Source of the DNA: Saccopteryx bilineata | Taxonomy: Eukaryota; Chordata; Mammalia; Chiroptera; Emballonuridae | DNA: 64,000 nucleotides | Reading direction: 5' to 3' | Assembly (NCBI RefSeq): GCF_036850765.1 | Contig: NC_089495.1 | Span: 210,287,254 to 210,351,253, forward strand | Shown here: piece after piece, positions 3,343 to 64,000 of the stretch | Position numbering within the stretch: the first letter of the stretch is position 1 | Layout: the number at the start of each line of letters is the position of its first letter | The notes under the pieces: model-generated | What the model saw: only the letters and a program-made list of their open reading frames with translations | Databases searched by the model: none | Told to the model about the DNA's origin: nothing | Translations under genes and position numbers: made by a program

Positions 3343-3716
3343 TTTTTTTTTTTTTGTATTTTTCTGAAGTTGGAAACGAGGAGGCAGTCAGACAGACTCC
3401 TGCATGCGCCCTACCGGGATCCACCCGGCACGCCCACCAGGGGGCGATGCTCTGCCCATCTGGGATGTTGCTCTATTGCAACCAGAGCCATTCTAGCGCC
3501 TGAGGCAGAGGCCATGGAGCCATCCTCAGCACCCGGGTCAACTTTGCTCCAATGGAGCCTTGACTGCGGGAGGAGAAGAGAGAGATAGAGAGGAAGGAGA
3601 CGGGGAGGGGTGGAGAAGCAGATGGGCGCTTTTCCTGTGTGCCCTGGCCGGGAATTGAACCTGGGACTCCTGCATGCCAGGCCGACGCTCTACCCCTGAG
3701 CCAACTGGCCAGGGCT
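3343..3716 (-). mobile_element. tRNA-derived bat SINE (VES/Rhin-like), minus strand
   Basis: On the minus strand the element starts with a tRNA-like head (GGCCAGTTGGCTCAGGGGTA, B-box-like GGTTCAATTCC). It continues through the characteristic 'AGCGCCCATCTGCTTCTCC' and 'CCATTGGAGCAAAG' body blocks and ends in a poly(A) tract, seen as poly(T) near 3343. It is flanked by a 14-bp target-site duplication, GGAAACCTGCTTTT, at 3333-3346 and 3717-3730; the left copy runs into the tail. It carries a strong CTCF-like core at 3431-3449. The VES/Rhin family name is from memory. Confidence 0.9.
3431..3449 (+). promoter_or_regulatory. CTCF-like motif inside a SINE
   Basis: CGCCCACCAGGGGGCGATG agrees with the 19-position CTCF consensus at about 17 positions, including the whole CCACCAGGGGGCG core. 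It is part of the SINE body, so it could be spread by retrotransposition. Confidence 0.55.
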
Positions 3717-7400: not shown

Positions 7401-7848
7401 CCCTCCTCTGCTCGGTCCCTGGAGAAAACTATTTGGAAATGTCTCATTCCCCCTAATCCTGAGGGTTGCAGCTCAGGCAGGTGGGCAGCACAGATGGGCC
7501 AGGCAGAGGAGGCCCGCGTGCTGCGTGTGGCCTGTGGATGGGTCTGACACGGAGTTCAGGCTGAGACGTGGAGTCCCGACAGGCAGAGCTACCCCTTGGG
7601 TCCCCACCCCTCTTGATGAAACAGAATGTTTAGCTGAATAACCATGTGCACAGGGCACTTGCATAGACCTGGGACTTCTGCTGCGGCCAGAGGCAGAGAG
7701 ACAAGCCCGTGCTGGCTGCCGGGGTCCTGCTGCCTGATGGGTCCCGCCACGGTCGCTGAGCATGGGCCTGGGCCCAGCACCCGGTTGTCATGGCATTCCC
7801 CCCTGGTCCTCGTCATGGAGGGGGACAGACGCAGTGTGGGAGGGCGGG
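4430..7848. other. GC-rich intergenic DNA
   Basis: No gene or interspersed repeat was recognised over about 3.4 kb. There are G-rich runs (for example 5393-5417, a potential quadruplex) and a short CA run near 5283-5296. One weak RE1-like motif at 7153-7172 is listed separately. The open frames are short and overlap on both strands. Confidence 0.5.
7153..7172 (-). promoter_or_regulatory. Weak REST/RE1-like motif
   Basis: On the plus strand TCGCTCTCCAAGGTGCTGAA matches the reverse-complement RE1 consensus at about 17 of 20 positions. The left half (GGTGCTGAA) is perfect, but the other half has CTCTCC where CTGTCC is expected, a change at a normally important base. Confidence 0.3.
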
Positions 7849-8376
7849 GAGTGGGCTGGGCATGGGGGCACCCCACAGGAGGACGCTGTTGGGTGCAGGG
7901 TGACCGGACGAGGCCCCCCAGGGTGTGGGCTGGGCATGGGGGCACCCCACAGGAGGACGCTGTTGGGTGCAGGGAGACTGGGTGGGCCCCCCAGGGTGTG
8001 GGCTGGGCATGGGGGCACCCCACAGGAGGACGCTGTTGGGGGCAGGGAGACTGGGTGAGGCCCCCCAGGGTGTGGGCTGGGCATGGGGCACCCCACAGGA
8101 GGACGCTGTTGGGGGCAGGAAGACTGGGTGAGGCCCCCCAGGGTGTGGGCTGGGCATGGGGCACCCCACAGGAGGACGCTGTTGGGGGCAGGAAGACTGG
8201 GTGAGGCCCCCCAGGGTGTGGGCTGGGCATGGGGCACCCCACAGGAGGACGCTGTTGGGTGCAGGGAGACTGGGTGGGCCCCCCAGGGTGTGGGCTGGGC
8301 ATGGGGGCACCCCACAGGAGGACGCTGTTGGGTGCAGGGAGACTGGGTGAGGCCCCCCAGGGTGTGGGCTGGATTC
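7849..8376. repeat. Minisatellite, unit about 73 bp, 7 copies plus a partial
   Basis: Units begin with GTGGGCTGGGCATGGGG at 7851, 7925, 7998, 8072, 8145, 8218 and 8290, and a truncated one begins at 8364. Unit length varies between 72 and 74 bp through short G or C runs. The units differ by few substitutions, so the array is young. The long frames read through it are by-products of the repeat. Confidence 0.95.
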
Positions 8377-13809: not shown

Positions 13810-14559
13810 ACTGGCGTTCAGAAGCAAGCTCTCTGCCGGGACAGGGACCCCTGGACCCATTGTGGGGGGGAGGACAGGGTTTAGGACCAAATCCTGGGGA
13901 GTGTTTGAGCTGAACGGGCGAGGATGGGTGAGGGCTGGGCTCCAGGTTCAACCCAGCCTGGCCAGCTCCTTAGCCCCACAGAACGCTGGTATCTGAGGAC
14001 AGAAGCTGGACCCTGAGCGCCAGGTGTGGCTGGCTCGAGGGCCTGCCGGAGTGTCCCAGGGACAGCTCGGCCCTGTTGGTGGGGGAGGCTGCATCTCGGT
14101 GCACAGGGCAGATTGCCGGGAGACCAGGGTCCCGCACCCGATGAATGAGCAACAAGCAGGTGCGGTTCTCACAGTGAGGGTGGGCGGAAGGCCACCACGG
14201 TCCACCACTCCCTGTCCCCACCAGCACCGTTCCCCTACTGGGCCAGCCGAGGCGTCTCCGGCCGGCTGACAGACCGTCTCCTTTGCGCACATGCACCCGC
14301 CCTGGTGCAAGGGAGTGAGTGCAGACACACCTGTGTGTCCACACACGTATCCACACACGTGTCCGGGCAGCAGCTGCCGGGCTCAGGCCTCGGCCACCAG
14401 CGCCCGTAACACCGTCTGGGTTTAGGACCCACAAGGCACCTTTGCGCCGGCCCAGCCTTCCACGCACATCAGGGCACGCCGCCTCGCCCCACGGAGACGC
14501 AGGCGCCCGGGCCCCGCGTGGCTCTATCCCCCCCCCCCCCGTCCGCGACAGTGTCTGAC
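13810..14559. other. GC-rich DNA upstream of HAR1
   Basis: No separate element was recognised apart from a C run at 14528-14540. If the human HAR1A/HAR1B organisation is kept, the start regions of the divergent lncRNAs would lie here or in HAR1 itself. No TATA box or clear splice pair was found. Confidence 0.4.
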
Positions 14560-14591: not shown

Positions 14592-14709
14592 CGAAATGGA
14601 GGAGAAATTACAGCAATTTATCAACCGAAATTATAGGTGTAGACATGTGTCAGCCGTGGAAACAGTTTCTATCAAAATTAAAGTATTTAGAGGTTTTTCC
14701 TCAATTTTA
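14592..14709 (+). ncRNA. HAR1A: HAR1 element (core of HAR1A/HAR1B lncRNAs)
   Basis: This 118-bp segment is the orthologue of human accelerated region 1. Long blocks match the remembered chimpanzee/ancestral form, including GGAGGAGAAATTACAGCAAT at 14598-14617 and CTATCAAAATTAAAGTATTT at 14669-14688. In human the element lies in the overlapping, divergently transcribed lncRNAs HAR1A (forward) and HAR1B (reverse). HAR1A is expressed in Cajal-Retzius cells of the developing cortex, and the RNA folds into a stable structure. Synteny with MIR124-3, YTHDF1 and BIRC7 downstream confirms identity. Against the remembered ancestral sequence I count about eight or nine substitutions plus a small indel, far more than the two reported between chimpanzee and chicken. 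The terminal helix can still form between 14593-14597 and 14704-14708 with one G-U pair. Exon limits of the lncRNAs cannot be read from the sequence. Confidence 0.95.
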
Positions 14710-15844
14710 AATTATGCAAATGCCTCCTCTCCGTGATGCAGCGGCACCGCGGTTTTAATTGCAGGATTACCCGGAGGCCCGCACGGTGCAGCTGTGGTCC
14801 CGGCCCCTGCTCCCCGGTGGCCCCTTTCTGCCCAGCTCACGGCGTCCCTGCAGCCCCGTCCTGAGGGGACCCCGCACCCCCCTCACAGTTTCTGTGCCTG
14901 TTTCCCTGAGTTCCTCTGCATTGTATTTTATTCAAATAAGGGCCATTTGTCTTTCTCAATTTTTTTCTTTTCTTTTTGTCTTGTTACATAGGCCTGGGTC
15001 TCCGGTGCAAACCCAGCAGAGGCGTGATGACAGGGGCGTCTGAAGCATGACCGTGCCTCTACCGCTCCTTCTGACTCACGAGGTTTGCCGCACGGTGTTG
15101 CCAGCCGGCTGAGCGTGCCGGTGCCGTGGCTGCGTGCAGAGAGGGTCACATGGCCGCTTTCCTTCCTGGCGTCCACATGGCTTACCATCTGGGATCCACA
15201 CGGGGCCGCATTCCCGGGAACTGCGTGCCGCCTCACGCCCGCCCGGCAGCTTCGGGTTGGCTCACGTTTTCTGGTTCCTTGCCCCGTTTTGAAATGAAGA
15301 TTATCCAAGCCTCACAGCATTAGTTGGGGGTCATTTTCCTACCTCTCTGTGAAATGCTTTTTAAAGAGAGGGCTTTTCTCTTCTCAGAGCGTTTGGTGAC
15401 ACTTGCCTGTGACGCGTGGGCTGAGTGTCCCGTCTCGCCGACGCAGCTGCGGACGGGGCCCGGGTGAAGCTCGCTGCCTTGGACCCGGGGCATGCCACGG
15501 CAGACGGAGGGGGCAGCCTCAGACAAGTTTGTGCTAGGACAGTCTGGCCACCTCAGCGGCTGCTCAGAGGTCCTCCAGAGCGCAGGCCAGGTGTGGGGCA
15601 GTGGTGTTCACCCAGCTGGTGTGTCCTGGACTTCACAGCTTTGCCATAGACTCCTGGCATGACCGGGAACCTCTCTTGGGCAGAGCATGTCAGCTGTGGT
15701 GGACCCTCTGCTGAACAGAGCAACGGGAGCCCAAGACATCCCCACAGCTGCTGGTCTGTGCCGACCTCAGACTGGCCGGAATTGTACCAGTTTCCATCAG
15801 ACTGGGGAATGTGTGTGTGTGTGTGTTTTGGGGGGGGTCTTGAA
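14710..15844. other. Region downstream of HAR1
   Basis: AT-rich sequence continues to about 14765 (TTATGCAAATG, GTTTTAATTGCAG), so the conserved block may be wider than the 118-bp core. From about 14920 to 14990 a T-rich tract follows. Later HAR1A exons would be expected here by analogy with human, but I could not define splice sites. A (GT)n run lies at 15811-15826. Confidence 0.4.
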
Positions 15845-18863: not shown

Positions 18864-19220
18864 GCCCTGGCCGGTTGGCTCAGCGGTAGAGCGTCGGCCT
18901 AGCGTGCGGAGGACCCAGGTTCGATTCCCGGTCAGGGCACACAGGAGAAGCGCCCACCTGCTTCTCCACCCCTCCGCCGCGCTTTCCTGTCTCTCTCTTC
19001 CCCTCCCGCAGCCAAGGCTCCATTGGAGCAAAGATGGCCCGGGCGCTGGGGATGGCTCTGTGGCCTCTTCCTCAGGCGCTAGACTAGGCTCTGGTCGCAA
19101 CATGGCGACACCCAGGATGGGCAGAGCATCGCCCCTGGTGGGCGTGCCGGGTGGATCCTGGTCGGGCGCATGCGGGAGTCTGTCTGACTGTCTCTCCCTA
19201 TTTCCAGCTTCAGAAAAGTG

Positions 19221-19559: not shown

Positions 19560-20037
19560 CCAGTGCCTGGCGGACACGGATGCAGAGAAGGGACCAAACC
19601 CTGAGGCCACCAGGGCTGCTGGCACCTGGCCAGGGGCTGAAGGGCAGCCACATGCAAGGGCATCGGCTCTGCCCCCTCCGTGCCGCCCCAGCTGCCCAGG
19701 AGGGTGGGGAACAGGTGGGATGGAGGGCTGGCAGCCGGCAACTCAGGCCTGCCTGGCTGTGTGGCGACTCAGGGCCCTTGGGAAGCCGTCACCTGCCTTC
19801 CTGACCGTTCCCTTCCACTAAATGGGTCTCGTTCAATGCAGGCAGGCGTCCTCCGCGTGAACAAAGCCAGATGCAGGCAAGATGCGTTTTCATCCCAAGT
19901 GACACGAAACGGGAAATTGGAAGCAAATACGAATCTGGCCGAGGGTTATAGTCCAGCATCTCCCTCCAAAGTCAGGCTGTGCAGCAGACTTAGAATAATC
20001 GACAGACACACGCCGCTGGGGGGCTCCCGTCAGCCGG
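19560..20037. other. Intergenic DNA
   Basis: No feature was recognised between the short duplication and the 70-bp array. Confidence 0.4.
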
Positions 20038-21480
20038 AACCCTGTCACCGCCCAGCACCCCAACGGCCTTCCTGACGCTCAGTCCTGAGGGGTCCGGGGA
20101 GGTGGGGAACCCTGTCACCGCCCAGCACCCCAACAGCCTTCCTGGTGCTCAGTCCTGAGGGGCCCGGGGAGGTGGGGAACCCTGTCACCGCCCAGCACCC
20201 CAACGGCCTTCCTGGTGCTCAGTCCTGAGGGGCCCGGGGAGGTGGGGAACCCTGTCACCGCCCAGCACCCCAACAGCCTTCCTGGTGCTCAGTCCTGAGG
20301 GGCCCGGGGAGGTGGGGAACCCTGTCACCGCCCAGCACCCCAACGGCCTTCCTGACGCTCAGTCCTGAGGGGTCCGGGGAGGTGGGGAACCCTGTCACCG
20401 CCCAGCACCCCAACGGCCTTCCTGACGCTCGGTCCTGAGGGGCCCGGGGAGGTGGGGAACCCTGTCACCGCCCAGCACCCCAACGGCCTTCCTGGTGCTC
20501 AGTTCTGAGGGGCCCGGGGAGGTGGGGAACCCTGTCACCGCCCAGCACCCCAACGGCCTTCCTGACGCTCGGTCCTGAGGGGCCCGGGGAGGTGGGGAAC
20601 CCTGTCACCGCCCAGCACCCCAACGGCCTTCCTGGTGCTCGGTCCTGAGGGGCCCGGGGAGGTGGGGAACCCTGTCACCGTCCAGCACCCCAACGGCCTT
20701 CCTGACGCTCAGTCCTGAGGGGTCCGGGGAGGTGGGGAACCCTGTCACCGCCCAGCACCCCAACAGCCTTCCTGGTGCTCAGTCCTGAGGGGCCCGGGGA
20801 GGTGGGGAACCCTGTCACCGCCCAGCACCCCAACGGCCTTCCTGACGCTCAGTCCTGAGGGGCCCGGGGAGGTGGGGAACCCTGTCACCGCCCAGCACCC
20901 CAACAGCCTTCCTGGCCTTCAGTCCTGAGGGGCCCGGGGAGGTGGGGAACCCTGTCACCGTCCAGCACCCCAACGGCCTTCCTGGTGCTCAGTCCTGAGG
21001 GGCCCGGGGAGGTGGGGAACCCTGTCACCGCCCAGCACCCCAACAGCCTTCCTGGTGCTCAGTCCTGAGGGGCCCGGGGAGGTGGGGAACCCTGTCACCG
21101 CCCAGCACCCCAACGGCCTTCCTGACGCTCAGTCCTGAGGGGTCCGGGGAGGTGGGGAACCCTGTCACCGCCCAGCACCCCAACGGCCTTCCTGGTGCTC
21201 GGTCCTGAGGGGCCCGGGGAGGTGGGGAACCCTGTCACCGTCCAGCACCCCAACGGCCTTCCTGGCCCTCGGTCCTGAGGGGCCCGGGGAGGTGGGGAAC
21301 CCTGTCACCGCCCAGCACCCCAACGGCCTTCCTGGCCCTCGGTCCTGAGGGGCCCGGGGAGGTGGGGAACCCTGTCACCATCCAGCACCCCAACGGCCTT
21401 CCTGGTGCTCAGTCCTGAGGGGCCCGGGGAGGTGGGGAACCCTGTCACCGTCCAGCACCCCAACAGCCAGTCCTGAGGGG
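20038..21480. repeat. Minisatellite, unit 70 bp, 20 full copies plus one truncated
   Basis: CCTGTCACCG occurs at 20041 and every 70 bp thereafter up to 21441 (CCTGTCACCA at 21371), with no change of register over 20 units. Variation is confined to a few positions: CGCCCAG/CGTCCAG, AACGGCC/AACAGCC, CTGACGCTC/CTGGTGCTC, CAGTCC/CGGTCC and GGTCCG/GGCCCG. These form recurring unit types, so expansion involved multi-unit blocks. The last unit is cut short after CAACAGCC. Confidence 0.97.
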
Positions 21481-30595: not shown

Positions 30596-30600
30596 TGCCT

Positions 30601-31722
30601 CAGGAGGAGGGGAAGGGTGGCCAGACCCCTTGGGCACTGCCATTGCAGGCTCAGGAGGAGGGGAAGGGTGGCCGGACCCCTTGGGCACTGCCATCCCGGG
30701 CTTAGGAGGAGGGGAAGGGTGGCCAGACCCCTTGGGCACTGCCATCGCGGGCTCAGGAGGAGGGGAAGGGTGGCCAGACCCCTCGGGCACTGCCATCCCG
30801 GGCTCAGGAGGAGGGGGAGGGTGGCCAGACCCCTTGGGCACTGCCATCCCAGGCTCAGGAGGAGGGGAAGGGTGGCCGGACCCCTTGGGCACTGCCATCC
30901 CAGGCTCAGGAGGAGGGGAAGGGTGGCCAGACCCCTTGGGCACTGCCATCGCAGGCTCAGGAGGAGGGGAAGGGTGGCCGGACCCCTCGGGCACTGCCAT
31001 CCTGGGCTCAGGAGGAGGGGAAGGGTGGCCGGACCCCTTGGGCACTGCCATCCCAGGCTCAGAAGGAGGGGAAGGGTGGCCGGACCCCTTGGGCACTGCC
31101 ATCGCAGGCTCAGGAGGAGGGGAAGGGTGGCCGGATCCCTTGGGCACTGCCGTCCCAGGCTCAGGAGGAGGGGAAGGGTGGCCGGACCCCTTGGGCACTG
31201 CCATTGCAGGCTCAGGAGGAGGGGAAGGGTGGCCAGACCCCTTGGGCACTGCCATCCCGGGCTCAGGAGGAGGGGAAGGGTGGCCAGACCCCTTGGGCAC
31301 TGCCATCCTGGGCTCAGGAGGAGGGGAAGGGTGGCCGGACCCCTTGGGCACTGCCATCCCGGGCTCAGGAGGAGGGGAAGGGTGGCCGGACCCCTTGGGC
31401 ACTGCCATCCCAGGCTCAGGAGGAGGGGAAGGGTGGCCGGACCCCTTGGGCACTGCCATCCCGGGCTCAGGAGGAGGGGAAGGGTGGTCGGACCCCTTGG
31501 GCACTGCCATCCCGGGCTCAGGAGGAGGGGAAGGGTGGCCGGACCCCTTGGGCACTGCCATCCCGGGCTCAGGAGGAGGGGAAGGGTGGCCAGACCCCTT
31601 GGGCACTGCCATCGCAGGCTCAGGAGGAGGGGAAGGGTGGCCAGACCCCTTGGGCACTGCCATCCCGGGCTCAGGAGGAGGGGAAGGGTGGCCAGACCCC
31701 TTGGGCACTGCCGTCCCAGGCT
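30601..31722. repeat. Minisatellite, unit 51 bp, 22 copies
   Basis: CAGGAGGAGGGGAAGGGTGG starts at 30601 and recurs every 51 bp up to 31672, with no indel over 22 units. Because 51 is divisible by 3 and few units carry stops, four or more frames stay open for over 1 kb on both strands, giving repeats such as WQCPRGLATLPLLLSPG (minus) or RRRGRVAGPLGHCHPGL (plus). No codon bias, domain or splice context supports coding. Confidence 0.97.
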
Positions 31723-33525
31723 CCCCGCCCTGTGCGTCTCCGTGGAGATCGCCCTTCCTTGCGTCCAACCTCTTTCCTCAATAACTGTCATGGAACCTGG
31801 GCGGTGCCATGCTGGCTGGCGGGAAAACTTCCTCGTCCTGCTGCCCCCTGAGCCCTGGGCGAAGAGGGAACTGAGCAGGGGCCCCCTCCTTCCCCAAGAA
31901 GAAGTCTATGTTAGTTCAATCAGTGAAGAAGGAGGGTCCCCCCCACCAGTACCCACATTGCACATCCAGACCGTCCACCCACTCCCAGGCCCCCCGGGAT
32001 CTGGAGGGAGCGTTTGATGGACGTCCTTCCCTGGCCACTGACGGAGACTGTGTCACCGGAGACACTCACGTGTTGAACCGGGAGCCCCGCTGGGGCTCAG
32101 CGCGGGGCACAGGTGATCTTGCTTCCGCTGGTCACCTCGTGTGTCCGTGTCAGTGTAATCATGCACGCTGGGGACACCCCACAGCGTGAGACTCCCCCCT
32201 CTTCCTCTGGGTGAGGCAGAAGTGCCTGCCTCTGCACCCAGTGGGGTGACTTCCTCCCGTCTTGTTTCCTGATGTAGTGATTACACGGCAGTGGTTGACT
32301 TTGAGACCGGTTCCCTCGCCTTCTTGGTCCTGGTGTGTCTGCCGCCGACATCCAAGAGTTAAATTGCTCAATGACCTGAAATAAGGGAATGTAACACATC
32401 TCCAGGGCGTTCTCAGCAGTTTCTCACCCGCCCCCTTCCAGGAGAAAATAGTCACCCTCCCCCACGCCTCTTTGGAAAGGAGAACCGGCCGCCCACCTAG
32501 CGTCCTCTGTGGCCAGTGGGGCCCTGAAGTTCTCATGGGCTGCCCGTTCTGGCCTTGTTCTCCCGGCCTGTCCTGGACAGGACAGATGGGGTCCCACATC
32601 CCCAGGGACCCTGGCCGGCTGCCTGCCTCCGGTCCTTTCACGGACATGCACATCCAAGGACTGGACGGTCGGGGGCCGGGGGACATGCTGGTGGCCGGGC
32701 ACTTCCAACCCAGGGTCCTGGAGGTGGCCCAGGACACGTCGGTGGCTTCAGAGGACAACAGGGCAGATCCAGGCTCACCTCTACAATTTTAGGTATAGAT
32801 TCTGAAGTGTATCTAAGGTGACATTGCCAATTTCCCTGGTTGTGATATTCTCCTTAATTCTTTCCTAAGCAATACCAAGCTGGCCACTTTCTTCCCAAGG
32901 GTCTGGCCCCACCATGTCCACTAGAAACCTTCCCAGGAGGACAGACCCAGAACAGAGCGGAGCACCACTTCCTCTATAGATAGGACTTGCCAAGCCTAGT
33001 GGATACCTCTGATGCCACCCAGGTGATGGACACCAGGACCCTCACGCATCCCAGTGGTGTGAACCTGACACATTGGTCCATGAAGCCCAGCACCACCGCT
33101 GGACAGGGCCTGGGTGTCGACATCATCTTCACCAGTGAGGACCCTGGGGCTGAAGACCTGCCCTGGCCCTACCTGCCTCTGGGCGTGGGGGACCCTGGCT
33201 GGTGGGTGATGCATCCGAGGATGTACCCTGGGCCAGCAGCCTGCACCCCCTCCCTCTCCCTCTCCCAAGCAAGATATACAGCCAGGCTGAGTTCAGACAG
33301 GCGAGCCGGGGCAGTTTTAGGGCCTGGCAGCACCCTGAGTCCCTGGGACCTGCGGTGGAAGAGACAGCTTCTTCCTTGCCCACATGCCCACAGGTAACGG
33401 CACACCTGTGTGTGAGCACACGTGTGCACACGCACACACCATGGCACAAAGGCATTTCTACCCTCAGCGTATGGATTGCTGGCTTTGGGCTTTAGGGAGG
33501 GAGGAAAAAAGGAAGAAAAGGAAGA
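31723..33525. other. Intergenic DNA
   Basis: No gene or interspersed repeat was recognised. A CA/TG-rich stretch lies at about 33410-33440. Confidence 0.45.
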
Positions 33526-42942: not shown

Positions 42943-43029
42943 TGAGGGCCCCTCTGCGTGTTCACAGCGGACCTTGATTTAATGTCTATACAATTAAGGC
43001 ACGCGGTGAATGCCAAGAGAGGCGCCTCC
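42943..43029 (+). ncRNA. MIR124-3: pre-miR-124-3 hairpin
   Basis: The 87-nt precursor contains miR-124-5p (42957-42978, starting CGTGTTCACAGCGGACC) and miR-124-3p (42995-43014, TAAGGCACGCGGTGAATGCC), separated by the loop TTAATGTCTATACAAT. The seed AAGGCAC is intact. The flanking arms TGAGGGCCCCTCTG and AAGAGAGGCGCCTCC match the paralogue-specific flanks of human mir-124-3 as I remember it, which separates it from mir-124-1 and -2. miR-124 is the dominant neuronal microRNA. It represses PTBP1 and SCP1/CTDSP1 among others and acts in a double-negative loop with REST. The primary transcript presumably starts in or upstream of the CpG island. Confidence 0.99.
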
Positions 43030-50388: not shown

Positions 50389-53300
50389 CTGGAAGAACAG
50401 AGAGGAAAGGGTGAACATGCGTGCAAACTCCCTCAAAATCAAGCCCCAGGGCTGCAGCTGCAGGTCTGGACCTGGGCTTGGCTGGGACCGGCCAGGCCAG
50501 GCCAGTACTGGACACGCCCTGTCAACAGCTTCCGTCTTCGGGGTCCTGGCTGCGCAGCCAAGGCCTGCTGACCACTGCGCGGGCCTCCGCCTCTTCTAGG
50601 CAAAGGTCCTCTGGTAGGCAGGACTCCAGCTGAGCCTCGCTGCCCCAGGAGGACATGTGCTCGGCACTGGGAGGCAGCCTCTCTTGCCCGCTTCACCCTG
50701 TCCTGTCCTGTAACTGGGACAAAACTCGTGAAGGGCACTGCGATGCTGGCTGGGTCATGACAGTCCCCAACAGACAGGATACTCGTCACTGGACAGGTAA
50801 TAAAACAAACTGAACCTGTCTTTGGCTAGAAGTGGCCTGTGTCTTCAGATTAACAACACACCCCACCTCGTTCCCCAGGGCCCAGCAACCAGTCCCGAGA
50901 GACAGCACCCTCTAGGAATGAGCACCTACCCTGACCTCCAAACTGAGGAACTAGCTCTGTAGTTTGCGTTCTCTTAACACCAACTAACACCCACCACCAC
51001 CCACAACTCCCGGCTCACGGTGCTGAGAGCCCAGGAAGGCCGTAGCCGTCTGAGATGGGCGGGGAAGCTGGCCCTGACGCCGTCCTCCACACACAGACCA
51101 GCACCTGTCCACTCTCCAGACTGACACCCACCCACAGGACCAGGTTGTCACAACTCCTTAGATTTACTGCTCTCTGAGGGGTCAGCGTGTTTCCAAATTC
51201 TAGCTGAGACAGCACAGCACAGCAGTCCTGCCAAACGTCATCTTCGGCTTACTGACAGGTGGCGAGGTTCCTAGGTGTCTCCAGAGCCGGGGGCCTCAGC
51301 ACAAACCTGGGACTGTAGAGCCCAAACTCCAAGGGCCCAGCAGCTACAACGCAGTCATCAGGGCACGAGGACCTTCCCAACGCCAAGCAGGCAAGGGGCA
51401 GAAACCTGCCCTGAGCGCACCATCACCCTGAGCCCAGCCAGCTCCGGAAGGGCACGGCGGTGTTGCAGATAAACACACAGCAGAGCAGCTGCAAGCCGCC
51501 TGCGGCCCTCGGAGCTGCTGACCAGCGAGGTCCGCTCTGTCCCTGTGTGTCCAGCAGTTCTATCTGTGACAGGTATCGCATGCGATACAAGAGCTAATAC
51601 ACAGCCTTCCCAGCTGGACACAAACGACAGCCCTTCTCTTCCGCACAAGACGGAGTGAGAGACCAGCTTGTCTTCAAAGCTCAGCACACCCGCGTCGTCA
51701 CTGGAGGAGTGACTGTACAACTGCCAGTGGAGGCCCCACTCACAGCCTCTCTGCTCAACTGCTTCAGGCCCTTTGAAGCTCACAGATGGGCATTACGTTT
51801 TTTAACAGGGAGGACCAAAAAAAAAGACTGAAAACCCAACTATTATCAATTGACATTAAATGACATTTTAAAAACAGAGACACAGGAAAACCCTCAGGAC
51901 GAGGCCTAGGACAAAGCAGCCTTCCGCATGTCCACTGTCCTCTTCCTCCCACTTCCCGGGCAGCCCGTGGGCACCGAGCCATCCCCTCCTGAGCGGGCTC
52001 CACGGCCAGGGCTGCGGGTCTCTGTGTAACAGGAAGCGGACTCCCAGAGACCTGGCTCGAGGCCTCAGCTGTGCTGACCTGTCTGCCCTGGGCCGCCCTG
52101 CTGTTCCCACCACCCACAGGGAGCTGGTCCACTTCCCAAAGCTGCAGGACACTGGGTTTCTGAGAAACAGTAAGCAACAACCTGCAGACCCCTGCTCCCT
52201 TCCTCAGGGGGGAGGGGGTGTCCCCCGCCTAGCAGCCTCGCCGCCGGCCCCAGCGCCCCGACAGAGCTCCCGCGCGCCCCGACTCGACAACGACTAGGAA
52301 GCACTGCCCCCGAAAGACCCCGACTCGAGAGAGGAGCGAGTCTCCCAAGTCCCTCAGCGGACCTGCACGGGCACCGTGGTCCCAATCACTGCTCCGCAAA
52401 CACAGGAACCGGGTCAAAGGTTAGGCTGCCACCCCCCCACCCCCACCCCGTCGGCAGACTCAAGCCCGGGAGGTCTCGGCCCAGGACGCCCGGCTCACCT
52501 TGCGCACCACCTCCTCCTCCTCCTGGCGCTTCTCGTAGTGGGAGAAGTCGTCGAAGATGGAGGTGGTGTGCTTGTAGGAGGCGATGATGCGCAGCACTTG
52601 CTTGGCCTTCTCCAGGGGCACCTCCTGGGTGTCGCGGGAGTTGGTGACCGGCTTGTTGTCGTTGTTCTCCAGCCGGATGTGCCGGAGCTGGTTGTTGGGC
52701 ACGTCCTTGACGAAAATCCACTTCACGTCGAACTTGCCCTTCCACTTGTCCTGAGACCAGACCCCTGCGCTCGTGCCGTAGTCCACGGGCGACTTCATCT
52801 CGGCCACCCCGCAGAAGTGGCCGCTGCCGTTGACGCTGAAGAGCAGGTAGACGGGCCCCTTGCTGCTGAGGGAGCGGAAGGCGCCGTCCAGCCGCTTGTT
52901 GCCGTGCTCGGTGCTGCACCAGATGGAGTACTTGATGGAGCGGTGCACATCGTCCTCCGAGTAGCTCTTGATGATGAACACGCGCCCACTGCGAAGGTTC
53001 CAGTCGAACTCCTTGGGGTTGTAGCTGTGGGCCGCCTTCAGTTTCTCGAGGACCGGGTGGGACTCCACGCTGGGGGCGGAACTGGGCGGGGCGCTTCCGG
53101 GGGAGTGACTGTCGGCCCCGGCCCCCGAGCCCTGCCCAAATGCCGTGTTCCGGTTGCGTGGGGCGACCCAGCGGGCTTGGGGCGGCGGCTGTGAGCTCTG
53201 ATACTGTGGCTGAGCCAAGGGGGGGGGTTGAGCGGGCAGGGGCTGGATGACCGGCTGAGGCTGGGGGGCGGAGTGGGGGGCCGGCACCTGCTGAGGGGCC

Positions 53301-56300
53301 GGGGCCTTGGGCACGGGCCCCTTGTTGTCCCAGGTGCCGATGTCCATGTTATGCTTGATGGGAGGCGGCGGCAGCGCGCCCGCAATGATGGGTCCACCCT
53401 TGGCCTTCACTTTCGGCTGCGGCTTTGCTGGCTTACTGGCGATTGCGGCCCATGACGTTGGCTTCGAAACTGGCATGCTCACGTTTGTCCCACCTCCGCC
53501 AGAGAGCATGCCGGTCATGGCCACACTGCTGACGCCGGAGCCCACCGTCTTGACTGCGGAGGTGGTGACGTCACCAAGCTTCAGGCCCACCACCCCCTGC
53601 TCCAGGCTGTTCATCCCCGGGGCCTTGTTGAGGGTATCGCTGGGGAAGCCTGTCTGCCCGTCCACAATGGTGCCACCCAGGGAGCTTGGCGGGTAGGTGT
53701 AGCTGCTCCCATAAGCCGAACTCTGGGCCTGCTGCCCCTGAGACCCACTCGTCCCCCAGGCTGAGAAGGCAGGGTTTTCGGGGAAAAAATTAAACCTGTG
53801 CTGGTAGATGTTGTTCCCCAGGCCCCCAGGCTGCCCGAACACAGCGTCGTGCATGAAGTGGTGGTCGCCATTACTGAGCTGTCCGTAGGTGGTGAGATAG
53901 GGGATGGGAGGGTCCCCTCCGGTGGACCACGGCGCCTCGTTGAGGGAGTAAGGGAATCCGATGGACGGCGGGTAGTAGCTGGACAAGTAGGGGTCGGCCA
54001 TGGAGGGGTAACTGTTACTCTGTGGAAACAACAGGGGCCGAGTTAGACTGCTCCTGCGGCTGGAGGAGACCACCTCCTGCTCCGCGCAAGGCGGGCGGCG
54101 GGCTGAGGCTGCGCAGCAGGCCGCTGCCCCCAGGACACAGGGCTCACTGGACAGCAACGGAAGCAAGTCAAGCTGAGCAGGAAGAAGCCTGGAGACGCCC
54201 CCCCGACCAACCCCCGAGTGGGCTGCACACCAGGCTGCCCTCACCCCCAGCCACCCGCCTCCTCTGTGGTGACGGTGCAGGTCCTGAACTCACCGGGAAC
54301 AGAAACTACCCTGCACGCCCTGTGCTTCTCTGCCGAGTGGACTGCAGCCCCCGACGGAGCGTGCAGACACAACGCTCGGGGCCGATGCCCTCCTGCGCCC
54401 CGGATGCGGCCAGCATGAGCCCCCCAGTCAGGACGGGACAAGAGGCCCTCCAGCCCAGAGAGGCCTCAGCTCGGCCCCTCGAGCAGCAAACGCACTCTCC
54501 CCTCAACTGTGCACCGAGGTGGTGGCCACGCAGTCCACTGACCAGGAACACGACGTGTGAACCCAAGTGAAGAGAACAAACCCCAACCCTGCTGCTGGCG
54601 CAGTGACATCTGTGAGCAGGCGGCTCTTTCTAGGAGCGGGAAGGTGCAGGTAAAACTGTCACCACGGCTGGCCTTTCACAGGAGGGACTGCGGCCTGCAG
54701 CCTCGGGTGCCACTCAGTCACACCGGACAGTCCTTGCGGCAAGATCAGCCTCCTGACTGAGACGCCAGGAGCACAGGACTCTGTGGGCGTGCCGGTGACT
54801 AAGCCGCAGTGGTGAGCAAACAGGCACGCCAAACCAAACAGTCCCGAGGAGTCAGGGACTGTTATCCCAGGGCATTCTCTTCGGAAAAAACAAATGGTAA
54901 TCCACAATAAAGCTATAAATCTATTTGAGATTTAAGAGTTTTTCACACTTAATAAAATTTAACCACATTAAAAACAAAACAAAAAAAAAAGGAATGCCTC
55001 ATTCTGAATGACTAGAACCATTTACTTTAACATCGAAATGTCTGCTTCTTATATCCACTTTCCTGAGAAGGAATTCTGAAATTACTGAAATGCTTTTAAG
55101 TTCCACAAATAACAGTGACTCAGCCGTCAGTGAGCAAGCGCAGGGACTGAGAGAGAAACGGAGGGCCCTTCCGAAGCGCAAGGGAACAGAACGTTTGGGA
55201 GCATGCTGAGAGCGCTGACTTAAAAAGGAAACGAGAAACGTGAACATGTTACATAAAAGGAAAAGCATCCGGAACAACTATGACAACAGTGGCAGTGACA
55301 GTGACCCAGACTCTGGGAATCCGGCCCTGCGACCAGGGCCCGGCACCCACGGCTCTGACCGGCTCACCCTCGAGCTCAAGGCCCTCAGCGGGCAGGTGGC
55401 AGGCCGGGTCACATGCAGAGCACACTTTGACAGTCACCGAATTGCTGCACATGCTTCCTGCCTGGAGGAGCGGTTTGAGCAGCCTGACTGAGGTGCTGGG
55501 ATCTCCTGGGTCCTGCCCGCTGTGTCTCAGGGCGCCCGGCCTCTGCTGCAAGGCACCACGTTTCAGGGGATCCCAGAGCTTCAGACGCACATACGAGAAG
55601 CCCACGTCCAGCCCAGGCCACAAGGGAAGGGCTCCCAGCCGACCCCTGCAGTCTCCGGGCTGCCGAAACCCACCAGAACCCCAACACCGCAGCACATCAG
55701 GAGCCAACGCCTCGTACAGAGCTCACACCCCAACGAGGCCTGGGTCTGGTCTGGCCTTGTGCTGCTGCCGAAGAAAACTGCCCCAAACTCACAGAAACCC
55801 CGGGGGACAGCTGAGTACAGCGTCCTTGAGGCCAGACAGAAGCTTCTTGCAGAGGGAAGAGACAGACTTTTGGAGAAGGGCAGACTGATCTATCCCGCCA
55901 GAGAAGGCACTGCCTGCTTCTACTCAAAAGCTGAGAGCACGGTGTGTTTTAAATATGATAAATAAATGTCAAGTACCCCGAGTGGTTTGAACCAGAGTGA
56001 CTGACCCTCCAGCAGACACTTTGACTGTCGCACTGGGGGGTGGGGGCCATTACTGATGGCATCTCATGGATGACCGTGGCAGGGGCGGGCGGCTGTTAAA
56101 CACCCTACAACGCACAAAACGACGCCTCTTTCAGCCCAAAAGGTCCAGTGCCCAGGCTGAGAAACCTGAAGACCCTCTGAAAACCAGGCAGCCACAGCTC
56201 ACCGGGCCCTGCCTCAGGTACTGCCTCCGAGCTCTACGTGGCATCAAATGCCACCCGACACTTCTGTGAAACACTTACCGCTGTGTTTTACAGAAAAGGA

Positions 56301-58865: not shown

Positions 58866-61504
58866 ATAAGGATCACAGGTGCTGTCAAATGGAAAACTTG
58901 CAGAGATCCAGGTTGCTGAGCTGGGTTCCACCCACAATGTGGAAGGAGTGGCCCCTGAAAATGAGAGGACTGAGGAGGGACAGTCACACAGGCCGCTGTT
59001 AGTGAACAGCAGGGGGGATCTGATAGCCACAGGCCACCCACAGCAGGGGGCAGTGTGGGCCCCATCTAGCAGGGAAGGTAGCGAGGCCCCAAGCAACTTG
59101 AATGCAAGGACCTGTGAATGGGCCCCAGGAAAGGGGTGGGAGAGTCTGCCCTAGTCTCTGCCCTCCTAGCCTTTCTCCCTTAGCACTAACTGTCCTCTGT
59201 CCCCAAAGACAGTGCCAAGTGCTCTGGGACCTAGACATCTCCCAGGAGCGGTAGCAGGATGTAGCTATACCTGCCTGGTGGTCCATGCTGCAGTCAGAAT
59301 AGGGTTGTCTGGCTGCCCCATCCGACGCAGGTGGTGCTGACCTTGGCAAGGAGAGGGGCCTTGGCACCTGCTGCAAAAGTGTCTTGTGCTTGCTGCTCTG
59401 GCAAGGAGAGGTGCTTCACCTGGCAACTGGGAGGACCCTAACCTGGAGGGACCAGAGGTGCTGGTGCTCCTGCAGCATGGGTGGCGGGCCTCGTTCCCAG
59501 CCTCTGCCGTCTCTCTCCCGCTGTCCTGGGATTTATTCTTTGCTTCTTCATGACACGGTCCCTCGAGCAGCTGTGCTCACAGGCACAAGACTCTAATGGA
59601 CACCCCGAACCCATCACTGTGACTCAGCACCCGTCCTTGTTCCCATCCAGGTCCCCGCCGGGGTGAGGGGTGGAAGTAGTTACTGACGGGGCTGGGGGTG
59701 GGCAGCTGAGAAGGGGTTCTCGGGGGGTGATACAGGGAGACCCCAAGCCCCCACCCAGTTCATGCCCCATCAGGCATCACTTCACAACACATATGCAGAG
59801 ACAAAAGTATTAAGAACGTCAAGATGGGTGTTGCCAGAGTGTTCGAGCCCCAGCGTTCAATCACCAGGTAGGGGGGCTGCAAAGGCCCCGAGGCACACAT
59901 GGGGGACCGGTGCCAAGTGTGGGTGGGGTTGCAGCACCAGGCGCTGGCCCCCGCCTTCCCCAGCCCCTTTAGTCCATGCCTGCTCTTGCTGCGTGGGAAG
60001 CCCAAAGCCTTCTCCTATTGAGCCCCTATTGGGCTCTCACCTGGTTCCCTGTGGTCCCCTGGAGTCCTTGCCCTGCATCACAGGTGGGTGTAATCCTAGG
60101 TCACACACCCTTTGCCAGGATTTCCTGCAGGAAACGAGGTAGCTTTGGGCCTCCAATAGGAGAGGGTTCCGGGGACTCATCGGAACTGCGGCAACCTCGG
60201 GGCTGAGCTGGTGGTGCAGCCGGGATAGTGATGGTGATGGGATCTCGGGGAGGATGAGGGAGTGGTCTCCCCACCCCTCCCCCACCTGCGGGGAGTGAGG
60301 CACAGCTGTGGGCTGGTATATAGGAGGGCAGGCCCCAGGCTTTGCTCTGTGTGGGCTCGCCTAGGTAGGAGGTAAGTGAGGGCACTGGGGCCCCTGGGTT
60401 GGGCTGGTTGGCGGAGACCATGTGACTGTGACCAGGTTTGAGGGAAGCCACTCCGTGGGGGGGGGGGGGGACGGGGACACTCGACGTGGCCAGCAGCTTT
60501 GACCTGGATGGAGCCTGTGCTGTTCCAAACCCCAGCTCCCTGCCCCCTGCCCCCTACTCCCGGCCCCAGACCGAGATCCAGGATCCTGATTCGAGATGGG
60601 AAAACTGACCTTGAAATGTGCCTAGTCCCAGATCTGCCCCCTGAGGCCTCGAGAGGTGAAGGAGGAGGTGGCGGCTCAGGTCCAGTCTCCTCCCCAGAGC
60701 CTCGAGAATCTTAGCAAGAGCGAGCCTCCATCTGTTCCCCTTCTCACCCCCGAGGAACAGAGCTGCCTGGGCCTGCTGAGGCCCCCCATGCCCCCGGCGG
60801 GACACAGGTACATCTCAAGCCCCCTTTGGCTCTGGGGTTCAGACCAGGAGGACATCTAGGTACAGGGCTCCAGCCTGCACGAGACACCCCTGCGCCCCTG
60901 GGCTGCCCTGAGAGGGGTCGCCCTCACTCTGGGGAGGCACTGATGGCCCAGCTCAGCTCACCTGGAACTTTCTGCTTCCAGAGGGGGCCCCTGGCGCCAG
61001 GCCCAGGAATTCTCAGCTCACCCAGGACGTCACCCACCCCTCCCCCGAGGTCCTGCAGCCAGTGCCAGCCTGCGGGCACCTTGGCAGGGGGCTTCATGCT
61101 CTGGACCCTCCCACCTTGTCTGGAGATACTGCCTGCCCTGTGGAGTAGAGGGAGGCCCGTGGCCCCTACAGCTGTCCCCACCGCCCCAGCCCCAGTCCTG
61201 GAGCCTCATGACACACCCCTACCGCAGAGAGCGCGTGATGCTGGCTGCCACGCTGGCCCTTTCCAGAACTTACTGGGCCCCAGTGGCCCTCAGGGCCCCC
61301 TGGCTCCTCCCCAGCCTGGGGCATCTGTGGATCAGGACAGAGCCCGCCCTACTCTGCCAGCTGTTCGAGGTAAAAGTCACCATTAACCCAAGGCAGGTCC
61401 TGGGGCTCGGGAGCCCTGAGGCAGGCTGGTGGGGCACATTCCCGGACAGGCAGTCCAGGCTCCTGGTCACTGCAGCAGAGCTGGTCTGGGCTGGTGTTTC
61501 CTCT
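58866..61504. other. Region upstream of BIRC7
   Basis: No protein-coding exon was recognised. A CTCF-type motif, CAGCAGGGGGCAGTG, is at 59041-59055. A TATA-like GGTATATAGGAGG at 60314-60326 could mark a BIRC7 promoter, but it is 1.2 kb from the ATG. The open frame running into BIRC7 from 61208 is probably 5' UTR or intergenic. Confidence 0.4.
59041..59055 (+). promoter_or_regulatory. CTCF-type motif between YTHDF1 and BIRC7
   Basis: CAGCAGGGGGCAGTG matches the CTCF core. Its position between divergent genes with different expression would suit an insulator; occupancy unknown. Confidence 0.45.
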
Positions 61505-61868
61505 ATGGGGCCCGGGGACAGGGCCAAGTGCTGGCGCTGTGGCCTGGAGCTGAGCCGCTGGACTGCTGGAGGCAGCCCCCCAGGGGGACACTGCAGACCC
61601 TGCTCTTTGTGTGGCCACGTCCCGGGCCAGAACTCCAGCCAGCCCCTGTCCTGGGGAGGCCAGGACCGCACGGACGGACAGATCCTGGGCCAGCTGCGTC
61701 CCCTGGCAGAGGATGAAGAGGAAGAGCGGGCCGGGGCCGCCCCTTCCCCGAGGCCTGCCTTCCCCGAGATGGATTCCGAGGAGCTGCGGCTGGCCTCCTT
61801 CTGCAACTGGCCGCTGATGGCCACGGTGCGGCCCGAGCTGCTGGCTGCTGCTGGCTTCTTCCACACGG
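61505..61868 (+). CDS. BIRC7: BIRC7 coding exon 1
   Basis: It runs from ATG in CTCTATGGGGCC to ...AAAGFFHTG, with donor GTGAGT. It encodes the N-terminal region and the first half of the BIR domain ([17 protein letters not shown]). Confidence 0.9.
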
Positions 61869-64000
61869 GTGAGTCTTGGGGCCTGGGTGCCATCCAGGAC
61901 CCTTGTGCACGGAGGGTCCACCTTCTCCGAGGAGCCCACCCACCACGTCAGGGGGCGTCCAGGTCAGATGAAGATGGGGGAGGGGGGCAGAAATCTGCAG
62001 CCCTTCCCACCTGTCCCCAGCCCTGGAATCTCTCCTGGCACGTGCTTCAGAGTGTGACCAGTGCAGCTGGGGAGGGGTCAGAGCCACACAGGACAGCTGG
62101 CGCCTGGCAAGGGGAGGTCCGTGGTGGGACAGTTGGAGCCAGGGAGAGAAACATCTGCGGGGCCCCTGGGAGTTCAGAGACAAGCTCTGGAGAGGTCTGG
62201 TGGTGGTGGTGGGGAATGTGCCTGCGGCCCCCACCCACCGTCCGTGCCAGGTGACCGTTCTATTGCTGATAGAGGACGAATCCGCTCTGCCATCCACAAA
62301 GGCATGAGCTTGGCAGTGCCCCTTTCCTCTGTCCCTGGGAATCCATCCCAGTGAGGTGGCCCCTGGTTAGAGGGGTGAGGGTGGTGGGTACTTCTGTTCC
62401 CTGAATTCCAAGGTGACGGGATTCCAGGGCCCGGGGCTTGCCCCCCCACACCCCACCTCCACCTCCTGCCTCTGTGAACAGCGTGTTCACAGAATGTTCT
62501 GTCAGTCTTGGCAAGTGCCCGGGTGCCGTGATCCCATTTCACCTTTGAGAAAACTTGGGGTGCACATGACATACGGGAAGAATACGGGGCAAGGGGGCAG
62601 CAGAGGCCAGCGGGCTCTCGTGCGTGACCTCAGGGAGCCCCTGCCCCACAAGGAAAGACTGCCTAGGAGCCCCCGTCTCCAGCCTGGGAGACACGCCCGG
62701 CCCAGCGGCAGCAGCTGGGTGTGGGGAGGGCCAGCGCCTCTGCTCTCCCCAGGCCAGCAGGACAAGGTGAGGTGCTTTTTCTGCTATGGGGGTCTGCAGA
62801 GCTGGGAGCAAGGGGACGACCCCTGGACCGAGCACGCCAAGTGGTTCCCCAGGTAAGGGCCCTGCAGGCAGCGCAGCCCCCCTGTCCTGCAGGGGTCGAG
62901 CCTCGGGGGTGGGGGCCCCCCTGTCCTGCAGGGGTCGAGCCTCGGGGGTGGGGCCCCCCTGTCCTGCAGGGGTCGAGCCTCGGGGGTGGGGGCCCCCCTG
63001 TCCTGCAGGGGTCGAGCCTCGGGGGTGGGGGCCCCCCTGTCCTGCAGGGGTCGAGCCTCGGGGGTGGGGCCCCCCTGTCCTGCAGGGGTCGAGCCTCGGG
63101 GGTGGGGCCCCCCTGTCCTGCAGGGGTCGAGCCTCGGGGGTGGGGGCACCCCTGTCCTGCAGGGGTCGAGCCTCGGGGGTGGGGGCCCCCCTGTCCTGCA
63201 GGGGTCGAGCCTCGGGGGTGGGGCCCCCCTGTCCTGCAGGGGTCGAGCCTCGGGGGTGGGGGCACCCCTGTCCTGCAGGGGTCGAGCCTCGGGGGTGGGG
63301 GCACCCCTGTCCTGCAGGGGTCGAGCCTCGGGGGTGGGGGCACCCCTGTCCTGCAGGGGTCGAGCCTCGGGGGTGGGGGGCCCCCTGTCCTGCAGGGGTC
63401 GAGCCTCGGGGGTGGGGGGCCCCCTGTCCTGCAGGGGTCGAGCCTCGGGGGTGGGGGGCCCCCTGTCCTGCAGGGGTCGAGCCTCGGGGGTGGGGGGCCC
63501 CCTGTCCTGCAGGGGTCGAGCCTCAGGGGTGGGGGACCCCTGGGGATGGGACTTGGGCTGTCTCTACCCTGCTGCTCAACAGATGGGGCTTCCTAAATGG
63601 CCTTCTCAGCGAGTGCCCGCCCCTCAGGGAGCCCCGCCTGCCCCTGCAGGGCACAATGGGGGGGGGTGGACAGAAGGCAGGACCCCAGACCCAGGGGCGT
63701 TCCAGCTTGGACCCGACAGTGAGGGGGGTGCTCTGCCAGTCCGAGCCCACCTCCCACGAGGCCTCTGAGCTCGCTCTCCTCAGGTGTGAGTTCCTGCTCA
63801 GGACCAGAGGAAGGGACTTTGTCGGCAGCATCCAGGAGTCCTGCTACCACCTCCTTGGCTCTTGGGTGAGTCCTGCCTCCCCCGAGGGCTGGGGGCAGGT
63901 GATGAGGGCCCTCCCCAGCCTGCTCCTCTCCCTCCTCAGGGCACAGGTATTGTCTGGCTCATTTCAGGACCCCTGGGAGGAGCTGGAAGATGCGGCTGCT
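61505..64000 (+). CDS. BIRC7: BIRC7 (livin/ML-IAP), 5' part, cut by the window edge
   Basis: BIRC7 is an inhibitor-of-apoptosis protein that binds caspases and SMAC through one BIR domain and carries a C-terminal RING ubiquitin ligase. Exons 61505-61868, 62753-62852, 63784-63865 and 63968 onward join in frame to 193 codons; human livin has 298. All visible splice sites are GT-AG. The start MGPGDRAKC aligns with human MGPKDSAKC. The linker [19 protein letters not shown] is conserved. The BIR domain (about residues 90-158) has zinc ligands C129, C132, H149 and C156 ([22 protein letters not shown]). Exon 4 begins [11 protein letters not shown]. The RING domain would lie beyond the window. The N terminus has additional cysteines (C12, C33, C36) not present in human as I remember it. 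Confidence 0.95.
62753..62852 (+). CDS. BIRC7: BIRC7 coding exon 2
   Basis: The acceptor CTCTCCCCAG precedes (G)[18 protein letters not shown] and onward to WTEHAKWFP, then donor GTAAGG. It holds the CxxC and the histidine ligand of the BIR zinc. Confidence 0.95.
62853..63783 (+). repeat. BIRC7 intron 2 with a 38-39 bp minisatellite, about 17 copies
   Basis: From about 62875 to 63535 the intron is a tandem array of CCCCTGTCCTGCAGGGGTCG followed by AGCCTCGGGGGTGGGGG(C). Unit length alternates between 38 and 39 bp in G/C runs. Each unit contains a pyrimidine-rich CCCTGTCCTGCAG that looks like a splice acceptor. Confidence 0.95.
63784..63865 (+). CDS. BIRC7: BIRC7 coding exon 3
   Basis: The acceptor CTCTCCTCAG precedes (R)[19 protein letters not shown] followed by CYHLLGSW, then donor GTGAGT. 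It supplies the last zinc ligand (C156). Confidence 0.93.
63968..64000 (+). CDS. BIRC7: BIRC7 coding exon 4, partial
   Basis: The acceptor CTCATTTCAG precedes [11 protein letters not shown], matching human DPWEEPEDAAP. It is cut by the window end. Confidence 0.85.

Follow-up and report, generated by a model that had tools for sequence, protein, structure and literature searches.

The window analysed here, a 64,000-nucleotide stretch of the Saccopteryx bilineata genome, carries HAR1, the textbook example of an element that stayed static over 300 million years until it changed in humans. The first-pass annotation had recognised the HAR1 core from the letters alone (Table 1), and covariance-model searching bears it out: Rfam cmscan matches RF00635 (HAR1A) on the forward strand, scoring 127.8 bits where the gathering threshold is 40, and model positions 1-118 of 118 are covered. 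We took such a score, above the curated cut-off over the whole length, as the mark of a HAR1 orthologue. Within the bat's own assembly (2.61 Gb, 256 contigs), RF00635 has a single match, a count that is a lower bound, with 58 of 227,461 first-look candidates scored. Exact HAR1 21-mers had no match in the viral_contigs and genome_contigs collections.

The neighbourhood is conserved as well. Downstream of HAR1 lie mir-124-3, YTHDF1, and BIRC7, as in the human order, and the region corresponds to human 20q13.33, which carries the HAR1F/HAR1R locus. The element is located ~0.88 Mb from the end of a contig of 211,185,682 bases; human HAR1 likewise lies at a chromosome end. The element is a true mammalian HAR1 orthologue, real and intact-looking, and it is unusually diverged.

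Table 1. Features of the window, numbered from its first nucleotide; base changes are relative to the Rfam consensus of RF00635 and carry element positions
Feature	Position	Strand	Remarks
HAR1 core, 118 nt	14592..14709 (Rfam alignment to 14710)	+	RF00635 full-length match
T1C	14592..14592	+	CpG created; Rfam lower case here (less conserved)
T35C	14626..14626	+	CpG created; TGA to CGA in frame of ATG at 14596
C55T and A56G, adjacent (CA to TG)	14646..14647	+	Rfam consensus comparison
A64C	14655..14655	+	CpG created; also changed in human (A to G), to another base
A102G	14693..14693	+	Rfam consensus comparison
T run of five (four in Rfam and chimpanzee)	14694..14698	+	1-nt insertion after 102
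AATTTT for AAATTTC	14703..14708	+	1-nt deletion and C117T, or A113T and C117A
Octamer ATGCAAAT	14714..14721	+	just 3' of HAR1 core; exact match
mir-124-3 hairpin	42943..43029	+	RF00239, 84.6 bits at 42950-43021
YTHDF1 large exon, open frame	52463..54289	-	PF04146; YTH domain near aa 407-599
BIRC7 exon segment, first part of BIR domain	61706..61873	+	best PDB match BIRC7 2i3h

The mir-124-3 hairpin, 28 kb from HAR1, served as a control for local constraint and synteny, and equals the human hairpin in 87 of 87 nucleotides. The best PDB match of the YTHDF1 frame is YTHDF1 itself (4rci, a chain that we take to be human), with 10 differences in 191 residues of the YTH domain. The GC3 of this domain reaches 0.96; several of the differences from 4rci, which are unpolarised, run towards GC-rich codons and two the reverse way. 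A Pfam search of the assembly for YTH returned three places: besides YTHDF1, there was one short match of partial length and another interrupted by six stops. YTHDF2/3, sought in the assembly as a control for the regional rate, were not found, the protein search giving YTHDF1 only; nor was RF02137, a conserved lncRNA element sought as a control. The BIRC7 segment corresponds to residues 255-310 of a frame that starts at 60944. Human BIRC7 contains one BIR. Upstream of the listed segment, another BIR-like sequence (61439-61615, forward strand; Pfam BIR) aligns with PDB chains of XIAP and BIRC2/3; it may represent an additional BIR or the relic of one.

The window further contains minisatellite arrays at 20036-21468 (period 70), 30599-31723 (period 51), 62876-63540 (period 39), and 7847-8372 (period 73), long arrays fitting a chromosome-end region. 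A tRNA-derived SINE of ~335 bp is present twice (3381-3715 and 18864-19200), the copies standing in opposite orientation and being 86% alike. Both resemble the tRNA-derived SINEs of bats, and two weak tRNA matches fall within them; the 10-kb flank L002 adds four matches, as further copies or pieces of the SINE. Scanning both strands of the window for exact octamers yielded two, one of them directly 3' of HAR1; this octamer is a site of the POU-factor type.

For comparison, we used the Rfam consensus together with chimpanzee and human HAR1 sequences that were checked against published entropies. Their mono- and dinucleotide entropies (1.8625/3.6452 for chimpanzee, 1.9682/3.8643 for human) equal to four decimals the values given in PMC8393862. 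Between the two sequences there are 18 differing sites, from position 6 to position 113, in agreement with the published comparison. The Rfam consensus is identical to the chimpanzee sequence except for position 72, where it has C rather than T.

Relative to the consensus, the bat element shows seven substitutions and two 1-nt indels or, in Rfam's own alignment, eight substitutions and one indel. Six substitutions are common to both alignments (T1C, T35C, C55T, A56G, A64C, and A102G), which part only at the 3' end, where either an A is deleted and C117T follows (118 nt) or A113T and C117A are read (119 nt). Altogether, 110 of the 118 positions are unchanged. At the adjacent pair, A56G possibly came first and made a CpG that decayed afterwards. 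Against chimpanzee, eight or nine substitutions are counted, and realignment reproduced the list drawn up in the first-pass annotation (positions 1, 35, 55, 56, 64, 72, 102, and ~117). The offsetting 1-nt indels described there, one more T in the run that follows 102 and an A lost near the 3' end, also reappear, the latter in one of the two alignments. At position 72, the bat base does differ from the chimpanzee T, but it equals the Rfam base, so that it was probably chimpanzee that changed there.

We call the remaining changes independent in the sense that they are absent from the Rfam consensus and from chimpanzee; the term covers these two comparisons. Conservation elsewhere was gauged by the same consensus and by the two changes published between chimpanzee and chicken, which stand beside 18 between chimpanzee and human in PMC3613058 and PMC8393862 (both citing Pollard 2006). 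The bat changes overlap the human-changed sites at one of seven positions (P 0.70) or two of eight (P 0.35), no more than chance, and a shared set of changed sites was rejected. Clustering of the changes was rejected likewise (longest gap 38, P 0.50).

Five of the seven changes run from AT to GC and two from GC to AT, a proportion that fits drift towards a GC content of 0.6 (P(≥5 of 7)=0.80). The GC content is 0.623 in the window and 0.331 in the element. Three CpGs are present in the bat element, none in chimpanzee or the Rfam consensus, and eight in human. Eutherian subtelomeres have been described as showing clustered high rates of protein evolution and GC enrichment, and 20q does not appear in the lists of GC-rich subtelomeres consulted there (PMC8336415); at another locus in bats, GC shifts were described as perhaps tied to a chromosome-end position (PMC11146322). 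In this context, a GC-biased drift of the region is likely.

Rfam 15 gives no base pairs for RF00635, and all statements on structure here rest on energy folding. This folding reproduced the human energy of -33.5 kcal/mol and gave -20.2 for chimpanzee against -20.0 in the published values (PMC8393862, PMC6542128). The predicted minimum free energy of the bat element is -20.8 kcal/mol, compared with -20.5 for the Rfam consensus. A consensus fold computed from four sequences (chimpanzee, Rfam consensus, human, and the bat element) comprises 36 pairs. Three of these become wobble pairs in the bat (2-118, 46-55, and 75-102, in alignment columns), none carries a compensatory change, and pair 35-64 is broken as C-C, both partners having changed; the bat element also lacks pair 1-118, which chimpanzee forms. 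In the same 36-pair fold, human turns six A-U pairs into G-C and two into wobble. The bat element thus lacks the AT-to-GC compensatory, helix-strengthening changes of the human type, and its fold is predicted to be weakened or unchanged, unlike the strengthened human one. The z-scores for structure show nothing notable, at -0.92 for the bat, -1.21 for the Rfam consensus, -1.31 for chimpanzee, and -2.27 for human.

The outer stem is predicted to be kept (duplex energy -14.8 vs -14.2), and the inserted T together with A102G would lengthen it. With the substitutions alone, the minimum free energy is -17.7, a stability equalled or surpassed by 90% of 1000 sets of like substitutions drawn at random. 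Pairing, in turn, is disturbed as little in only 3.2% of 1000 random sets by pairing probabilities and in 4.8% by base-pair distance, a mixed and weak hint from modelling that some structural constraint may remain.

T35C also has an effect on reading frames, as it turns a 10-codon ATG frame into a 46-codon one across HAR1 (14596-14736, forward strand; 72 codons when the spanning frame is counted from a GTG). We rejected a coding reading of the 46-codon frame, which has no Pfam match and no database relative; the reading is also undercut by human T6C, which removes the same ATG.

The changes can be set against conserved and neutral expectations. With just two sites separating chicken from chimpanzee, no more than two of the eight differences from chimpanzee can be ancestral states, and at least six substitutions probably arose along the branch leading to this bat. 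We compared six to seven derived changes with the two between chimpanzee and chicken by a crude binomial split; exposure ratios were based either on time or on neutral branch length, with assumed divergence times and branch lengths. The conserved rate predicts 0.27-0.31 substitutions, and the excess has P 1.2e-3 to 3.8e-6 across the exposures tried. Counting indels (nine events, time-based exposures only) gives P 1.9e-7 to 6.5e-7, a generous value because the published 2 refers to substitutions only. By this binomial with assumed exposures, the element has changed faster than the conserved rate, as a lineage-accelerated region would. Neutral evolution over the assumed branch lengths predicts 17.7-29.5 substitutions (P(≤7) 3.5e-3 to 7.7e-7), and the branch-averaged rate amounts to 0.2-0.4 of neutral rather than exceeding it. 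With the assumed times and branch lengths, the rate exceeds that of the amniote background but falls short of neutral.

Per million years, this corresponds to 0.064-0.087 changes in the bat; the amniote background stands at 0.003 and human at ~2.8. Human HAR1 evolved at ~25 times the neutral rate (assumed neutral length), and the bat element more than 30 times more slowly than the human one. The acceleration proposed at first pass therefore stands as a rate faster than the amniote background by the binomial test; any likeness to the human acceleration is unsupported, given a rate of 0.2-0.4 of neutral, five AT-to-GC changes of seven, a fold that is not strengthened, and an overlap with the human sites no greater than chance. 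The first-pass phrase that the changes come to roughly half the human count misleads as a statement of rate, because the bat branch is over ten times longer than the human one.

The most economical account, which we hold with moderate confidence, is that HAR1 here has been under partly relaxed purifying selection, weaker than in the amniotes compared, at a GC-rich chromosome end. Most changes would then be near-neutral and tolerated after this partial loss of constraint; mutation and GC-biased gene conversion may have pushed them towards GC at the GC-rich chromosome end, some of them adding CpGs. The counts in HAR1 do not separate GC-biased conversion from mutation bias. The HAR1 locus is known for brain expression, and the element could well still work as a brain-expressed RNA exon, as regulatory DNA, or both, because 110 of its positions are unchanged and its predicted outer stem can form.

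Against plain relaxation, a short burst would yield identical substitution counts. Such a second acceleration would have taken place on a short branch within bats, at the level of family or genus, at or above the neutral rate, and driven by selection or a recombination hotspot; six to seven changes within ~20-30 million years would equal the neutral rate, and within ~1 million years the human rate. The excess over the conserved rate, the adjacent double change at 55-56, the five AT-to-GC changes with their three new CpGs, and a chromosome-end position like that in human all speak for a burst. We nevertheless consider it unlikely: the branch-averaged rate is below neutral, two changes run from GC to AT, and the 36-pair consensus fold contains no compensatory or strengthening change. 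It is likewise improbable, in our judgement, that many of the differences were simply inherited, being common to all bats or to a wider group, with the frozen reputation of HAR1 owed to few species. In favour of this reading, the comparison was confined to chimpanzee, human, and the Rfam consensus, and of the 11 positions that Rfam gives in lower case, three (1, 28, and 72) are not human-changed, so that other species probably vary there. Capitals at 35, 55, 56, 102, 113, and 117 point the other way, weakly, as Rfam also capitalises 10 of the 18 sites changed in human.

Assembly or base-calling error could account for part of the differences, chiefly the two indels. Of all the differences, these are the most vulnerable to such error, because they fall in T and A runs (Table 1) and because a run of 13 Cs (14528-14540, forward strand), a likely trouble spot for assembly, ends 51 bp upstream of HAR1. 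We consider this explanation very unlikely, since six substitutions are scattered outside those T and A runs, mir-124-3 equals the human hairpin, the YTHDF1 frame is open nearby, and the contig spans 211 Mb. Partial relaxation remains our best reading. If relaxation was slow and took place at a GC-rich end, it would favour the idea that HAR1 evolution is shaped by location and biased fixation; if instead one branch gathered the changes in a burst, the element could be called 'uniquely human' only with qualification.

Compared with known systems, the closest is human HAR1F/HAR1R (RF00635 HAR1A), the same element at full length and on the same strand relative to mir-124-3. The bat copy carries 7-8 substitutions and 1-2 indels of its own and none of the 18 human bases, which indicates that HAR1 tolerates change outside humans. 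In the human element, all 18 changes run from AT to GC and include compensatory helix changes (PMC2873926), whereas here five of seven do so and none is compensatory. The bat element thus provides a natural contrast, with extra substitutions that lack the human helix strengthening. The excess of AT-to-GC changes at a GC-rich chromosome end is likewise in line with the GC-biased evolution described near human accelerated regions (PMC2873926).

We found no report of HAR1 change in bats in open-licence PubMed Central. A related class, the 166 bat accelerated regions (BARs), was obtained by applying phyloP to the ancestor of four bats in limb ChIP-seq peaks (PMC4809552). Unlike these, the present case comes from one genome and concerns a brain-expression locus. 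Like the BARs, it is a conserved element with extra changes on a bat lineage, and if a short-branch burst within bats were true, HAR1 would also be a bat accelerated region.
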